The position numbers and the translations under genes were made by a program. The notes under the pieces were generated by a model. The model did not search any database and was not told where the DNA came from. It saw nothing but the letters and a program-made list of their open reading frames with translations. Shown in pieces: positions 41,285 through 50,638 of a DNA stretch of 64,000 bases. Source of the stretch: Acidobacteriota bacterium (GTDB lineage Bacteria; Acidobacteriota; Terriglobia; Acidiferrales; UBA7541); the NCBI GenBank assembly GCA_003223215.1, contig QHYH01000096.1, forward strand, positions 1-64,000, in the 5' to 3' direction. Position 1 is the stretch's first letter. Each line of letters opens with the position of its first letter.

Positions 41285-42469
41285 ATGAAGAAAATCCTTA
41301 TCGTCTACCACGACGCGGGAGGAGGGCATCGCAACGCGGCGGTTGCGCTCGAGACCGTCATTGCCCAGCAGCCCCGGGATTGGCGGGTCGGTCTGGTACA
41401 GTTCCAGGATGTCACCGACCGCCTCGACGTGCTCCGGAAGCTGACCGGCATCCGCATCCAGCAGCAATACAACATTCTTTTGCAAAACGGGTGGACCCTC
41501 GGCAGCACGTATCTTCTTCGGCTTCTCGAAGGCACCATTCGGCTCTTCCACAAACAGCTGGTGAAACTACTGGAAAACTACTGGCGTGAGAATCCGGCGG
41601 ACCTTCTTGTTTCCGTGATCCCTCATTTTAATCGTCAGATTTGCGAGAGTTGGACGCATGTTTATCCGGGCCGGCCTTTCGTTACCATTATCACCGACCT
41701 GGCGGATTTGCCGCCGCGTTTTTGGATTGAGCCGATCAAAGAACAATACGTCGTTGCCGGCACGGAAAAAGCCGCAGAGCAGGCCCGCGCGATGGGTCAT
41801 GACACTACCCATATTTTTCGAACCTCAGGAATGATTGTGCGACCGGACTTTTATGCGTTGGACAGTTCCGATCCGTTGGAATTGCGGAAACAGATGGGTT
41901 TGCGGGCGGATCGGACGACGGCCATGGTCCTGTTCGGTGGACATGGCTCGAAGGTCATGCTGGATATCACCAAGCGTCTCGACGCGGAATTGCTGCCTTT
42001 GCAATTGATCTTGATTTGCGGCCGCAACGAAGCACTTGCCTCCGAGCTGCGTTCGCGGCAGTGGAAGATGCCGGTGTGCGTTGTCGGATTTACCAAAGAG
42101 GTGCACAGGCTGATGCGCGCCGCCGACTTCCTGATTGGCAAGCCCGGCCCTGGAAGCATTGCGGAAGCGATGATCCGCAAGCTTCCCGTGCTGATCGAGT
42201 GCAACGCTTGGACGCTTCCCCAGGAGCGCTACAACGCGGAATGGGTGAAGGAGAAAAATGTTGGGATCGTCCTGAAAAGCTTTAAGGATGTGGCGAAGGG
42301 CGTGAAGCGGATGCTTGAGCCCGCAACCCTCGCGGAGTTTCGCAGAAATGTTTCCTCCCAAGACAACCGCGCCATCTTCGAAATTCCCGAAATCTTTGCC
42401 TCCCTTCTTGGCGAAGACCACGGAACTTACCACCCTTCTGTGTCCATTTCAGCGGCTAACACGGTCTAA
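41285..42469 (+). CDS. Diacylglycerol glycosyltransferase-like protein (MGDG synthase / GT28 family)
   Basis: The 394-aa protein begins KKILIVYHDAGGGHRNAA, the N-terminal motif of MGDG synthase-like glycosyltransferases, and has VSVIPHFNRQICESW and FVTIITDLADLPPRFW in that domain. The C-terminal GT28 part has VLFGGHGSKVM, LILICGRNEALA and IGKPGPGSIAEAMIRKLPVLI. Such enzymes move a hexose from a UDP-sugar to diacylglycerol at the membrane. ATG 41285 is chosen; the frame is open 35 codons upstream without family-like residues. The PAP2 and PHP neighbours fit a lipid theme, by inference. Confidence 0.85.
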   Translation: MKKILIVYHDAGGGHRNAAVALETVIAQQPRDWRVGLVQFQDVTDRLDVLRKLTGIRIQQQYNILLQNGWTLGSTYLLRLLEGTIRLFHKQLVKLLENYWRENPADLLVSVIPHFNRQICESWTHVYPGRPFVTIITDLADLPPRFWIEPIKEQYVVAGTEKAAEQARAMGHDTTHIFRTSGMIVRPDFYALDSSDPLELRKQMGLRADRTTAMVLFGGHGSKVMLDITKRLDAELLPLQLILICGRNEALASELRSRQWKMPVCVVGFTKEVHRLMRAADFLIGKPGPGSIAEAMIRKLPVLIECNAWTLPQERYNAEWVKEKNVGIVLKSFKDVAKGVKRMLEPATLAEFRRNVSSQDNRAIFEIPEIFASLLGEDHGTYHPSVSISAANTV

Positions 42470-42603
42470 TTCCGTCGCCAGTGCGACAAATCACAGCGCT
42501 ACGATCTGGGGACAGGGAGACCGGAAAGACGCGGAACTCCGGAAATTAGAGTGGAGAAACCGGAACCGACGATGGCCCGAAGCCAGGCACGGAGAACTGA
42601 ATT

Positions 42604-42930
42604 CTAGAGTTCCGCGTGCTCGGACCGCCTGGGATGTGGGAACCGCGGTCCGGCGTGCGAGTCGCGCTTGGGTGTGCTCATGTGTGGCTTCGCGCAACTC
42701 TTGGCCCACCAGCGGGACGCATATTTCTTGGATTCGCACATCTTTATGCAGCCGCCGTGCTGCTTCGATTCCGCACAATGGCAGTAGCAGCCAGCCGTCG
42801 GCGTACCGCGCAACAGAGCCGGGGTGTCGGCAAGAAGCGAGGGGGTGAAGGCCAGCAGGGAGAATCCCGCGAGGAGAAGGCGGAAGGAAAGTCGGCGGCC
42901 GAAATGAGTTTCAGAGAGAAGGCTCCGCAT
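42604..42930 (-). CDS. Small secreted six-cysteine protein, unknown function
   Basis: The 108-aa product (ATG at 42930) has a basic head, a hydrophobic core RLLLAGFSLLAFTPSLL and a probable cleavage after LLADTPA. The mature part holds six cysteines: Cys48, Cys50 and Cys52 in GCYCHCAES, Cys61 and Cys65 in GGCIKMC, and Cys79. His51, His58 and His83 add to a metal-site look. The tail HAGPRFPHPRRSEHAEL is Pro/His rich. I do not recognise a named family; I recall similar small proteins in other acidobacterial genomes but cannot verify it. It is alone on its strand, 442 bases after the next upstream gene. Confidence 0.62.
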   Translation of the reverse strand: MRSLLSETHFGRRLSFRLLLAGFSLLAFTPSLLADTPALLRGTPTAGCYCHCAESKQHGGCIKMCESKKYASRWWAKSCAKPHMSTPKRDSHAGPRFPHPRRSEHAEL

Positions 42931-43147
42931 GCCCCATGCTGTGCCAGCTTCCCAAGAAAACCGATAGCGCAAAGTGTTCGTGAGTTCCGTTACTCGGGTT
43001 CTGGAACCACGGGGCGCTTGGGCGTTAGTAACCTTGCAAGATAGCCCAGTCAACCGTGCAGCCCGTAAAAAAGTTGCGACTCGAGTTTGCCCTCCGGTTT
43101 TTTGGAAGGGCCCCTAACAGGGTTCGACCGAAGCTAACTTCAACACA

Positions 43148-43169
43148 AGAAGACAGTTAACCGTCTTCT
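43148..43169. repeat. Near-perfect 22-bp palindrome
   Basis: AGAAGAC (43148-43154) pairs with GTCTTCT (43163-43169), and the centre holds the palindrome GTTAAC; 20 of 22 bases are symmetric. It could be an operator or an RNA hairpin. No T-run follows on either strand. Confidence 0.5.
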
Positions 43170-43217
43170 ATGCATTGCCCAGAGGTAACGCGAGCCGTCC
43201 AAGATTCAGAGCCGCTT

Positions 43218-43231
43218 CGTCTAAAAAGACG
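43218..43231. repeat. Short inverted repeat CGTCT-AAAA-AGACG
   Basis: Five perfect pairs around an AAAA loop. It lies 142 bases past the end of the CocE-like gene and shares the GTCT/AGAC arms with the palindrome at 43148. A terminator role is possible but no T-run follows. Confidence 0.3.
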
Positions 43232-43372
43232 GTAGTGGGAACAGGCGTGCCGGAAGGGGCTTGCTTGTGGCATTTCGCCCTGCCTACCAGCCTCTCTCCA
43301 GAAGGAAGCTAGGACGGATGAGCGCACGCGCCGGGCGATTTTTGCTGAACCTCCGCGAGCCCGTTTAACCTC

Positions 43373-45349
43373 TTACTGCGCTGCAACCAGCGGCAACTCA
43401 ACAAAACTCGCCTGTCCCGCACCATGGTAAATCCGCTGTGTCGCCTTTCGGTAGTCGCCCGGCTTGGCCCAGAAAATACTCGGCACAAAGGTCTGCGGAT
43501 TGCGGTCGTAGAGCGGGAACCAGCTCGACTGGATCTGCACCATGATGCGGTGTCCCGGGAGAAAAACATGGTTCGCGGTCGGTAGCTGGAAGCGGTAAAG
43601 CAACGGCTTGTCCGGAATGATGGCCTTTGGTGTTTCCAGGCTCTCGCGATACCGCCCGCGAAAGATGTCTGTGGAAACCATCAACTGGTAGCCGCCCATT
43701 TCTTTCTGTCCCGCTACTTCGTCCGGATAAACGTCAATCAATTTCACCACCCAGTCGGAGTCGGTGCCGCTGGTGGATGCGATCACGTTGGCAACGGGCT
43801 GCCCGCTGATTTTCACCGGCTCGCGCAATTCGTCGGATATAAAAGCAAGAACGTCCGGCCGGCCGGAAGCTTCGCGCTGATCATCCACGAGCCATTCGGA
43901 CCAAGTAAAGCCGTCGCCGTAGCCAACGGGCTGAACCGGGCGCGCTCGGTAAGGTACAGGCTTCGCCGGATCGGAGACGTACTCATCAAATGACGGATCA
44001 TTCGTCTTCGGCGCCGCAAAGCTCAAGCGCAACCCGGCGGACAGATAAAGTGGCGTCGCGTGAATGGTGCATCCGGTCGTGCAGCCAGCGGGCCAGGCAG
44101 TCAAACGCCGCCATTGATTCGTGCCTGTTTCAAATGCGGTCACCGGCGCGACATCGGCCTTTCTCGCTCCATCCTTTAGATATTGCGCGAGAAAAGGAGC
44201 GAGGATCTCTTTGCGGAAGTAGAGTCCCGTGTCGCTGCTGAATTTCAGAGCGCCAAGAGAGCTCGCGTCTTCAATTTCCTGACCGTGATGCCATGGCCCC
44301 ATCACCAAAAACACTTTGTCGTTGTTGGTGTCTTTGGGTTTGATGGCTTTGTACACGGCGACGGCGCCGTAGATGTCCTCCTGATCCCACAAGCTGTGCA
44401 CCAGCATCGTCGGGACCTTGAGCGGCCGTGCAGCAAGAATCTTGTCCATAGCTTGTTCTTGCCAGAAAGCGTCATAGCTTGGATGTTCGAGAATTTTGCG
44501 CCAGAAGCCGACCTGCTCAAGCCCGTGCTCGTGGCCGAGTTCGCCTGCCGAACCAGCGCGCATGTATTCGTCGTAGTCATCAAAGTGGCTGACCCACCAT
44601 TTGGCTTTGTTGTCGCGCGTGGCTTCCTGTTCGTAGATGTACGGCAAGTTCTGCTCGCGAAAAGCCCCGTTGTGGAACCAGTCATCGCCCATCCAGCCGT
44701 CCACCATCGGATTCATGGGCACGGAGACCTTGAGCGCGGGATGCGGATCGACGAGCGCCATCAGAGGCAAGAAGCCGTCGTAGGAAATGCCGAGGATGCC
44801 GACCTTGCCGTTGCTCTCCGGAAGATTCTTCACCAGCCAGTCGATGGTGTCGTACGTGTCGGTCGAATGGTCCACGGGAGTGGGGTTCAACGCGCCATGC
44901 AACGGGCGGTTCATCACGTAGTCGCCCTCCGAGTCGTACTTTCCGCGAACGTCCTCGACCACGCGGATGTAACCGCCTGCGACGATGACCTCGGTAGCGT
45001 TGTCGTATCCCCAAAGGATCGGGCCGAGATGAGAACTCGCGGCGTGCGATGTGAGCTCGGACGCGCTATACGGCGTGCGCGTGAGTAGAATCGGCGCGTT
45101 CTTTGCGCCTTTGGGGACAAGAATCACGGTGTGCAGCCTTACGCCATCGCGCATCGGAATCATCACCTCGCGCCGCTCGTAGTCCCACGTGGCAGTGGCC
45201 ACTTTCAAGTGCGCCGGTGTTTCGCTCGGCAGCGTTGTCGGTGCGGACTGCTGCGAAGCCGTTTGCGCCCGTGCGTTTGCCGGAAGGAGCAAGGCAACGA
45301 CGGCAGTATTGAGCAGAAGGCGGGTGCGGCGCAGAAGGGCTGGCGTCAT
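43373..45349 (-). CDS. Secreted CocE/NonD-family alpha/beta hydrolase (X-Pro dipeptidyl-peptidase-like)
   Basis: A signal peptide (cleavage near ANARAQ) leads into a 658-aa hydrolase. The N-terminal alpha/beta domain has MIPMRDGVRLHTVILVPKG, TRTPYSASE, VVEDVRGKYDSEGDY and the nucleophile elbow GILGISYDGFL with its Ser; later VMGPWHHGQEI carries the probable catalytic His. The C-terminal jelly-roll has LPGHRIMVQIQSSWFPLYDRN and a probable end. Family members cleave acyl esters, glutaryl amides or X-Pro peptides; the substrate is not readable. It stands alone with a palindrome just upstream. Confidence 0.9.
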   Translation of the reverse strand: MTPALLRRTRLLLNTAVVALLLPANARAQTASQQSAPTTLPSETPAHLKVATATWDYERREVMIPMRDGVRLHTVILVPKGAKNAPILLTRTPYSASELTSHAASSHLGPILWGYDNATEVIVAGGYIRVVEDVRGKYDSEGDYVMNRPLHGALNPTPVDHSTDTYDTIDWLVKNLPESNGKVGILGISYDGFLPLMALVDPHPALKVSVPMNPMVDGWMGDDWFHNGAFREQNLPYIYEQEATRDNKAKWWVSHFDDYDEYMRAGSAGELGHEHGLEQVGFWRKILEHPSYDAFWQEQAMDKILAARPLKVPTMLVHSLWDQEDIYGAVAVYKAIKPKDTNNDKVFLVMGPWHHGQEIEDASSLGALKFSSDTGLYFRKEILAPFLAQYLKDGARKADVAPVTAFETGTNQWRRLTAWPAGCTTGCTIHATPLYLSAGLRLSFAAPKTNDPSFDEYVSDPAKPVPYRARPVQPVGYGDGFTWSEWLVDDQREASGRPDVLAFISDELREPVKISGQPVANVIASTSGTDSDWVVKLIDVYPDEVAGQKEMGGYQLMVSTDIFRGRYRESLETPKAIIPDKPLLYRFQLPTANHVFLPGHRIMVQIQSSWFPLYDRNPQTFVPSIFWAKPGDYRKATQRIYHGAGQASFVELPLVAAQ

Positions 45350-45544: not shown

Positions 45545-45766
45545 CTAGTTGAGGCGGCGGTCGACGGCAATTTTGGCCCGGCTGAGGGCGTGCGCAACTT
45601 GCGTTTCGCGCAGGCGCGAAGCGTCGTATTCGAAAGACAATTGCTTTCTCGAATCGTCCACCCGGAAGCGCCGCAACCCGTAGGTGTTCGAGAATTCCGC
45701 GAGCTGGTACAACTGCTCGTCGCTTAGCGGAGACTGCAGTTGATAAGTCACTTCGACCAGTGTCAT
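45545..45766 (-). CDS. Small (73 aa) protein, possible ferredoxin-like fold, unknown function
   Basis: The sequence alternates short strands and helices: VEVTYQLQSPLSDEQLYQLAEF, then GLRRFRVDDSRKQLSFEYDASR and VAHALSRAKIAVD. This beta-alpha-beta-beta-alpha-beta order and size resemble HMA/ACT-type small domains, but there is no CxxC metal motif. ATG start; codon use looks like the neighbours. It follows the ABC-2 permease gene by 64 bases on the same strand and may belong to that unit. No family name can be given. Confidence 0.5.
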   Translation of the reverse strand: MTLVEVTYQLQSPLSDEQLYQLAEFSNTYGLRRFRVDDSRKQLSFEYDASRLRETQVAHALSRAKIAVDRRLN

Positions 45767-48160: not shown

Positions 48161-50638
48161 ATGTCCGATCTACCCATGAACGCGAAGCCACCCGGCGCAA
48201 ACCTGCCCATTCTGACCGGGCCGCCCAAAGCGAGAGACCCGGTTTGCGGGATGTCGGTGGATCCAACCAAGGCTGCCGGGAAAGTCGAGCACAAAGGCGA
48301 GGTTTACCATTTTTGTTCCAAGCGTTGTGCGGAACGCTTTCGGCAGGATCCGGAGAAATTTCTTGCCGCTCCGGGCTCGGCGGGCATTGAACACGCCCAC
48401 GCGCATAGCCGGGTACACCCGCACACGGCGGAGGCGGACGCTCCCACTCACGCCGAACAACGAACGACCCATCCAGCGGCAGCCGCAATCGCCGCAGCTG
48501 TCCCATCGAGCGCCCAAGGCGTGCGCTACACCTGCCCGATGGATCCGGAAATTGTGCAAATTGGCCCGGGCGTGTGCCCGAAGTGCGGAATGGCGCTCGA
48601 GCCGATCGATGTTTTCGCGGAAGTCGAGGCAGATCCCGAGTACGACTCAATGCGGCGGCGATTCTGGGTCAGCGCGGCGTTGTCATTGCCGGTGCTGGTC
48701 CTCTCGATGTTTGGCGATGCGCTCGGGTTGCGGTTTGCGCCCGGTGCTCGCAACGCGATCGAATTTGTCTTGGCCACCCCGGTAGTGCTCTGGGGCGGCT
48801 GGCCGTTTTTCGAGCGCTTCTGGGCCTCGCTCGTCCGTCGCAGCCCGAACATGTTTACGCTAATTGGCATGGGAACGGGCGTTGCCTATCTCGACAGCGT
48901 GGTAGCGACGTTTTTCCCGCAAGTTTTTCCTGCTTCGTTCCGCAACCTGGGCGGCCGAGCGCCGGCTTATTTTGAAGCGGCCGCAGTGATCACAACACTT
49001 GTTTTGCTCGGCCAGGTTCTGGAATTGCGCGCCCGGCAACGCACCAGCGGGGCGATCCGTGCGCTTCTGCATCTTGCGCCGCGGCAAGCCCACATTGTTT
49101 CCGCGGACGGAACGGAAAAAGACATGCCGCTTGACCAAGTCAAGCGCGGCGATCGACTGCGCGTGCGTCCCGGCGAGCGCGTGCCGGTGGACGGATTGAT
49201 TCACGAAGGCGCGAGTGCGGTGGATGAATCCATGGTGACGGGCGAACCGATGCCCGTCGAGAAGCGCGCGGGCGACAGCGTCACCGGCGGCACGCTCAAT
49301 ACGAGCGGAAGCTTCGTCATGGAAGCGCAACGAGTGGGTAGCGAAACGACGCTCGCGCAAATCGTAAGACTCGTCAGCGAAGCGCAACGTAGCCGCGCAC
49401 CGATCGCGCGCCTCGCCGACCGCGTCGCTTCGTATTTCGTCCCGGCCGTAGTTGCGGCGGCGGTCCTGGCGTTCGCTGGCTGGATGTTCTTTGGCCCTGA
49501 GCCGCGCTTTGCCCATGCGCTGGTCGCGGCCGTATCTGTTTTGATCATTGCTTGTCCCTGTGCGCTCGGGCTTGCAACGCCGATGTCGATTATGGTGGCG
49601 GTGGGCCGCGGCGCGCATGCTGGCGTGCTCGTGCGAAACGCGGAGGCACTGGAGACTCTCGCTAGAGTCGACACGCTGGTCGTTGACAAGACCGGGACGC
49701 TCACCGAAGGCAAGCCGCTTGTGAACGCGGTAAGCGTTTTTGAGGGCGGCGGATTTGGGAAAGAAAGATTGCTTGGACTGGCGGCCAGCGTGGAAAACTC
49801 GAGCGAGCATCCGCTGGCGCGCGCAATCGTTAGAGCCGCGGAGGCGAAGGGCATCAGCCTGGCCGAAGCGGCGGAATTTTGCGCCACTTCGGGCGGCGGC
49901 GTGGAAGGGCGGGTGGGGGAAGACCGAGTCGTTGTTGGAACGGAGAAGTTTCTGGAGGAGAAGGGAATCCCTCGGTCGAGTGCTGAACAACTCTACCAAG
50001 CCTTCGGTTTTGACGGGGCTTTTGCGGCCACGATTGTTCTTGTGGCGGTGAACGAAAAGCTCGCGGGCGCGATCGCACTGGCGGACTTGATGAAGGCGTC
50101 GACACCGCAAGCCATCAGCGCTTTGCAAAAAGAAGGATTGCGGATCGTGGTGGTCACCGGCGACCGCAAGGAATCCGCGAGGATGGTTGCCGATAAACTT
50201 GGGATTGCAGAAGTGCGGGCGGAGGTTTTGCCTGAGGAAAAAAGCGAAGTCGTAAAGCAGCTGAAGAGCGAAAGCCGCATCGTGGCCATGGCGGGCGACG
50301 GCATAAACGACGCTCCCGCTCTTGCCGCCGCGGATGTCGGCATCGCCATGGGTACAGGCACGGACGTCGCCATTGAAAACGCAGGCGTTACCCTGCTGCG
50401 AGGCGATCTCCGCGGAATCGTGCGCGCGCGCAAACTGAGCCGCGCCACAATCCGCAACATCAAGCAGAATCTCGCCTGGGCTTTTCTCTACAATGTGATC
50501 GGCATTCCCGTCGCCGCAGGTGTCCTCTACCCTTTCCTTGGCTGGCTGCTCAGTCCCATGCTTGCCAGTGCGGCGATGACCTTCAGTTCCGTTTCGGTGA
50601 TCGTCAATGCCCTCCGGCTCCGCAAAGTCCCGCTTTGA
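48161..50638 (+). CDS. copA: Copper-type P1B ATPase with YHS and heavy-metal-binding N-domains
   Basis: An 825-aa P-type ATPase. Residues ~24-66 are a YHS/TRASH domain ([29 protein letters not shown]). A His-rich linker ([11 protein letters not shown]) follows, then a heavy-metal-binding domain [26 protein letters not shown]. The pump has eight membrane segments, the ion motif CPC in [13 protein letters not shown], phosphorylation site [13 protein letters not shown] in [11 protein letters not shown] in SSEHPLARA and GDGINDAP. No classical HMA CxxC domain is present. It exports Cu+ (or Ag+) from the cytosol. The ATG start lies 102 bases from the divergent ABC gene. Confidence 0.9.

Follow-up and report, generated by a model that had tools for sequence, protein, structure and literature searches.

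A six-cysteine, predicted exported protein family encoded beside a copper-export locus in gp2 Acidobacteriota

The periplasmic copper-binding proteins CusF, CueP, CopI, CopM and Csp1 are obvious points of comparison for any small exported protein encoded near a copper pump, as are the metallothioneins and Cox17-type proteins, which hold Cu(I) in thiolate clusters and, in the case of the metallothioneins, have Lys/Arg near those thiolates. The six-cysteine (six-Cys) protein considered here is encoded in a window of 64,000 nucleotides, by which we mean the whole stretch of DNA that was analysed, and would act in the same compartment as the former group, beside a copper exporter. It differs from these proteins, however, in that its family has no Pfam match above chance and no PDB match, even at the level of PDB sequences, and in its cysteine-only pattern, CxCxC-x8-C-x3-C-x13-C. 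With the metallothioneins and Cox17 it shares CxC, six thiolates and Lys/Arg nearby, but we found no sequence relation to them, there being no match to a metallothionein-like family in Pfam, NCBIfam or the PDB sequences; moreover, the six-Cys protein is predicted to be exported and has its six cysteines in ~75 residues.

With respect to described families, PCYCGC (PF13798) resembles the six-Cys family in having C[YF]CxC followed by three further conserved cysteines. The likeness is a narrow one, however: the profile comparison aligns 13 columns around CYCxC (hhalign probability 33%), and in eight aligned PCYCGC sequences the invariant features are CGC, G-H and a C-x2-C end. One of the 34 six-Cys proteins that we aligned touches PF13798 (E 0.038) and the window protein does not; membership was ruled out because the curated score is not reached and there is no similarity beyond the C[YF]CxC motif. 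PCYCGC proteins, of unknown function, are common in the class (99 of 200 genomes), one of them being encoded in the window's own genome (G000:C110:62860-63081), and a passage of PMC13068155 gives a PCYCGC protein of Parageobacillus as a lipoprotein. The CutF-like proteins, CruR and CopL (PMC9973294) are exported copper-sensing peptides, small and with a signal peptide, a CxxxC motif and a copper-gene neighbourhood, all of which can be said of the six-Cys protein too.

The features of the locus, in window coordinates, are these:

42604..42930, minus strand (complement): gene for the six-cysteine, putatively exported protein; 108 aa, ATG start
42829..42930, minus strand: signal peptide, residues 1-34, judged by eye; A34 nearly invariant (90% or more)
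42694..42789, minus strand: cysteine core C48-Y-C50-x-C52-x8-C61-x3-C65-x13-C79; six Cys invariant in 34 of 34 proteins
42989..43007, minus strand: imperfect inverted-repeat-like upstream element GTTCCAGnACCCnGGTAAC, here GTTCCAGAACCCGAGTAAC; conserved
42957..42967, minus strand: near-invariant element CTATCGGTTTT, ~20 nt after GTTCCAGnACCCnGGTAAC
42936..42941, minus strand: -10-like hexamer CAGCAT, 5 nt before the ATG
43148..43169, no strand assigned: 22-bp palindrome of two 11-nt arms, 91% complementary, no spacer
45545..45766, minus strand: 73-aa protein of HMA (copper chaperone) fold without the CxxC metal site; conserved at the locus
48161..50638, plus strand: P1B-type copper ATPase (YHS + HMBD + E1-E2 ATPase; CPC, YN and MxxSS motifs); divergent partner of the locus

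The open reading frame that a sequence-only reading had placed at 42604-42930 lies on the minus strand and is a real gene rather than a chance frame, since it is encoded in 36 genomes, the window's own included. Its ATG matches the aligned start in the relatives, where the frame is open and under purifying selection: dN/dS is 0.14-0.33 in 11 pairs of the window gene with a relative (with dS >1, near saturation), and the third codon position differs most, at 0.60 vs 0.39 and 0.34 for the other two (27 rows of g1, the window's genus). The N-terminus, MRSLLSETHFGRRLSFRLLLAGFSLLAFTPSLLA, does resemble a Sec signal peptide when judged by eye, with a basic n-region (RRLSFR), a hydrophobic stretch (LLLAGFSLLAF) and an end in LLA before DT. 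The mature part, which would start at about DTPALL, contains CYCHCAESKQHGGCIKMCESKKYASRWWAKSC, in which the six cysteines indeed fall within 32 residues (C48-Y-C50-H-C52-x8-C61-x3-C65-x13-C79), and then runs into a His/Pro tail.

The sequence-only reading was to fall if homologues had lost the cysteines or if close relatives did not share the frame; neither proved to be so, and cysteine conservation across the relatives is strict. In the 34 aligned proteins, all of 97-122 aa, the invariant residues are Cys48, 50, 52, 61, 65 and 79 together with Arg73 and Glu104. The alignment leaves out two of the 36 genomes with the gene: L008 (G003) is a near copy of L004 with all six cysteines present, and L030 (G001) is truncated by the contig end after the fifth. 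The x8 spacing holds in 33 of the 34 (x7 in the other), as does the last spacing of x13 (x14 in one). Every protein has exactly six cysteines from the first motif Cys on; L014 carries a seventh, 7 residues before the motif; the other 33 have just these six downstream of the presumed cleavage site. Between the second and third cysteines stands His in 19 proteins, and R, Q, A, N, K, G, P or E in the rest. Three histidines had been claimed for the window protein, which has six from Cys48 onward, and, counted from the first motif Cys, individual members of the 34 have anything between 0 and 9; it is therefore the cysteines and not the histidines that define the family, and a histidine-based metal site is ruled out as a family feature. 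A lipobox-like LxAC/LxGC occurs in the signal region of 15 of the 34 (L014, L003, L006 and 12 others), in most carriers ~7 residues before LLAD, so some members might be lipid-anchored; the window protein, which has LLAF, lacks this site and would not be.

The family also went without a name in the sequence-only reading, and our searches gave it none: the window protein had no match in Pfam (E up to 1), NCBIfam or PHROGs, and two family profiles had none among the PDB sequences at E up to 10. Weak Pfam touches by single members (LETM2_N, SPATA25, DUF6372; E 0.039-0.81) were taken as chance. The AlphaFold model of the mature protein, built with 27 sequences, reached a pLDDT of 56 and a pTM of 0.29, and it was therefore left out of the fold searches and no conclusion was drawn from it. 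A literature search found nothing on the six-Cys family, which has no name to search by.

In its distribution the family is narrowly confined. A single-sequence search hit 40 of the 89 genomes of the family-level set (E <= 0.01), and the 34-row profile matched 37 of the 95 genomes of the order at E <= 0.001, with one match per genome; the same 37 were found among 399 genomes of the class (at most 11 candidates per genome being scored). Four weak single-sequence matches (G047, G048, G051 and G054; E 0.001-0.005, three of them with stops) were missed by the profile and taken as chance. The profile matches comprise 29 of 36 genomes of g1, five of six of g12 and both of g13, all in one family of gp2 Acidobacteriota (Candidatus Acidiferrum and kin), which makes 36 genomes and, in addition, one possible distant form. 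The latter is a weak match (E 1e-5) in G093, from another family of the order, to an exported-looking protein with CYCTC-x8-C-x3-C and eight cysteines in total; the HMA-fold gene was not found in that genome, and both points speak against a role of the protein at the copper locus. Phylum-wide, 396 genomes yielded only the window's own and one chance-like match (G717, with three internal stops). When one derived peptide pattern was run against a collection of 84,980 species, it recovered 26 relatives, all Acidobacteria-type and many of them gp2, with titles reading Acidobacteria, Acidobacteriaceae, Terriglobia or Candidatus Acidiferrum typicum.

The gene had been described as standing alone. 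As a transcription unit this is correct, with a convergent gene on one side and the S15 peptidase gene 442 bp upstream on the other, but the description overlooked a conserved copper neighbourhood. The ATPase of this neighbourhood passes the copper-translocating model TIGR01511 (609.6 bits, cut-off 397), and its CPC, YN and MxxSS motifs are what we take to be those of a copper-type (Cu(I)) P1B enzyme. Its 73-aa neighbour matches no NCBIfam or Pfam family above cut-off; the predicted structure (pLDDT 89) is beta-alpha-beta-beta-alpha-beta, and the best PDB matches to the model are copper chaperones and metal-binding domains. By Foldseek the best E is 9e-4, the sole one under 1e-3, with TM mostly 0.6-0.8, and the structural Z goes up to 9.6, a scale on which other ferredoxin-like proteins reach Z 8.1. 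Many Acidobacteriota, including genera that lack the six-Cys gene, have this HMA-fold gene next to a copper ATPase.

The order ATPase (opposite strand) – HMA-fold gene (same strand) – six-Cys gene was found in 29 of 29 testable genomes, that is, those in which the contig reaches far enough (24 of g1 and five of g12), and the ATPase lies 2 to 7 kb upstream of the six-Cys gene on the same contig in 29 of the 36 genomes, the linkage in G082 coming from a single neighbourhood comparison. A 30th genome, G006, has the HMA-fold gene and then its contig ends; the six others (G005, G007, G012, G013, G087 and G088) have contigs too short on the copper side. Half of the copper loci tested (14 of 28) include a CsoR-type repressor, which passes PF02583 (one protein tested) and has RicR as its best NCBIfam match, below cut-off (two tested). 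Beyond the copper genes, the neighbours in the window are a convergent GT28-type glycosyltransferase gene and a gene for a PHP-type protein, the latter being the next same-strand gene downstream and beginning 1,484 nt away, with same-strand S15 peptidase and ABC transporter genes upstream.

Of these two flanks the copper one is the steadier. GT28 and PHP flank the gene in 22 of 26 testable g1 genomes, and GT28 is convergent with it in 21 of the 22 g1 genomes that have GT28, the exception being L115, a contig of 3.5 kb on which GT28 and PHP are inverted relative to the other rows. No GT28 adjoins the gene in G006, G007, G011 and G014 of g1, nor anywhere in g12, where the other flank consists of BioB and BioF, with BioB on the same strand, and PilT is inserted upstream; in G011 there are same-strand ORFs ~0.5 kb downstream. 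Despite the missing GT28, either the ATPase or the HMA-fold gene is retained in G006, G011, G014 and g12, the contig of G007 being too short.

The pump locus, on the other hand, can do without the six-Cys gene. Four g1 genomes that lack the gene (G015, G027, G028 and G029) retain both HMA-fold gene and ATPase, as do several other genera; the pump is therefore independent of the six-Cys gene, which would be an accessory to it, and simple inheritance of gene order stays a full alternative. The corresponding gap in G027 and G029 holds no remains of the six-Cys gene: an ORF with CLCNC in G029 was considered as a remnant, but a stop interrupts it in G027 and we put it down to chance. Three more g1 genomes that lack the six-Cys gene (G010, G033 and G035) yielded no 73-aa gene either.

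Upstream of the start codon, GTTCCAGnACCCnGGTAAC is specific to the six-Cys gene: a search of the 36 genomes that allowed up to 2 mismatches placed 21 of its 40 hits here and 19 at other sites, as many as the 19 that the reversed control gave. A stricter first pattern of the element found nothing because the window copy reads AGTAAC. For CTATCGGTTTT, 20 of 21 matches lie at the six-Cys gene, against 0 for the reversed control (36 genomes; found in 21 of them). This genome-wide pattern search is the independent count for CTATCGGTTTT, since its conservation in the 22-row comparison is partly a matter of row choice, the rows having been picked for CTATCGGTTTT-like matches. The upstream regions of g12 and g13 retain only CTATCGG-like parts. 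In 15 of the 22 rows a -10-like CARAAT precedes the start codon by ~5-8 nt, and TATAAT precedes the HMA-fold gene at a similar distance from its ATG; such closeness suggests a leaderless or nearly leaderless six-Cys transcript, and makes leaderless transcripts plausible for both genes.

No regulon of the upstream element was found in the 36 genomes. A matrix scan with 20 sequences (the window and 19 loci) gave one weak extra site, 13.2 of 31 bits, in L040, although the matrix likewise fails to pick up the known site before the six-Cys gene itself in eight of the 20, including all six of g12 and g13. The element differs from the C-tract, CsoR-like sequence before csoR and, but for the weak L040 site, was not seen elsewhere in the loci scored, so that shared regulation with copA was not found.

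The near-perfect 22-bp palindrome to which the sequence-only reading had drawn attention is real. It stands ~218 bp before the ATG, and within 42930-43400 no other inverted repeat of 8 nt or longer was found. The window has one copy; since the search pattern was derived from the site itself, its shuffle count says nothing about palindromes at large. None of the 13 related loci inspected carries it (their best matches have 6-9 mismatches in 22 nt), which rules it out as a family operator and places it probably outside the conserved control region of the gene. A structured leader RNA is not supported either: there is no Rfam match in 42400-43400 at E <= 1, and RNAalifold on 22 sequences returned 9 pairs, 0 of them compensatory, at -1.81 kcal/mol.

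What, then, might this protein do? Since its gene has a copper-export pump close by in every genome in which the contig allows the check, the six-Cys protein may help handle copper outside the inner membrane. The reading that we tentatively prefer, while according it somewhat less than even chances, is that of an exported cysteine-thiolate handler of copper or another soft metal: a lineage-specific protein of gp2 Acidobacteriota that would serve as an accessory of the adjoining copper-export locus. The signal peptide would carry it over the inner membrane, the six cysteines (CxCxC, CxxxC and the last C) would capture Cu(I), or some other soft metal, as the P1B-ATPase delivers it, and the protein would then either buffer the bound metal or pass it on. 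By analogy with metallothioneins, Lys/Arg next to the cysteines (C-x-K-x-C, C-x-K) would be in keeping with a Cu(I)-thiolate site. We only infer that the protein is exported, keeps its thiols reduced, binds metal and is in functional contact with the ATPase. The earlier suggestion had been of either a metal binder or a disulfide-knotted factor; the neighbouring Cu(I)-type P1B-ATPase, the CsoR of half of the loci and the HMA-fold protein favour the metal side of it, shorn of its histidines. A more specific version, in which the six cysteines would form one polynuclear Cu(I) site (e.g. Cu4S6) and the protein would be an extracytoplasmic metallothionein taking copper from the P1B-ATPase, with a dedicated regulator on the conserved upstream element, strikes us as unlikely.

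Nearly as probable in our estimation as a copper or soft-metal handler is a small periplasmic or secreted protein with three disulfides and an envelope function unrelated to metal, which would sit at the copper locus by inherited order. Disulfides would account just as well for a cysteine count that is both even and invariant in an exported protein; past the assumed cleavage site all have exactly six but L014, which has seven. There is no conserved His, and the conserved Y, R, W and K, aromatic or basic, point to a folded surface. The linkage could be mere inherited order because GT28 also adjoins the gene in most of the g1 genomes, within which both flanks are mostly stable, and the upstream element of the six-Cys gene was not seen at the copper genes. 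However, the copper flank is kept in g12, G006, G011 and G014 even though the other flank is different there, and CxCxC is unusual for a three-disulfide scaffold, fitting neither knottin nor CSalphabeta spacing. Very unlikely, in our judgement, is a nascent-chain copper sensor of the CutF-like kind, that is, an exported Cys-motif peptide whose translation would control a downstream copper gene. The proteins would look the part, with fewer than 150 aa, a signal peptide judged by eye in the 34, CxxxC, no Pfam domain and a place at a copper locus (features given in PMC9973294, which in the same text also names members without the proline motif). Yet Pro-Pro occurs within the last 15 residues in three of the 34, leaving 31 without it, the window protein among them; the copper genes are upstream rather than downstream; and the next downstream gene is convergent in the window and in nearly all g1 genomes with GT28, although same-strand BioB in g12 and the same-strand ORFs in G011 depart from this. 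Six invariant cysteines and a conserved mature part argue for a stable product, and CutF-like membership is ruled out, given that the window fails on two of the listed filters (Pro-Pro and downstream gene). Least credible of all is that the peptide is secreted as a toxin or signal for other cells: the protein is small, exported-looking and Cys-rich and has the S15 peptidase and ABC transporter genes upstream in the window, but S15 was found in six of the 30 genomes compared, and also in G006, the ABC permease has no match and the ABC ATPase one match in 20 other loci, there is one copy per genome (E <= 0.001) under purifying selection, and no immunity-like partner was recognised.

Whichever function proves right, a tightly conserved and predicted exported cysteine family has been defined in uncultured soil Acidobacteria that is unnamed in the libraries searched, and its tie to a copper-export locus gives an orphan gene a testable function. 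If Cu(I) is bound, a cysteine-only extracytoplasmic copper protein would be added to systems known mostly from other phyla; if it is not, the protein would be an ordinary disulfide-braced envelope protein.

Two minor observations concern the copper locus itself. Where no CsoR gene was found next to the ATPase, T[AG]TTAGATGA occurs in 10 of the 13 intergenic stretches that separate ATPase and HMA-fold gene, followed in several by GGTTACAT (loci L101, L104, L105, L108, L111, L112, L113, L117, L120 and L045); where CsoR is present, there is mostly a C-tract sequence of the type ATACCC...CCCCTAT instead, the window's own stretch having been left out of this comparison. Finally, in G087 one contig end (L180, G087:C60) carries the HMA-fold, CsoR and ATPase genes and another (L121, G087:C231) PilT plus the six-Cys gene, an order of genes that would fit the g12 arrangement if the two ends adjoin.
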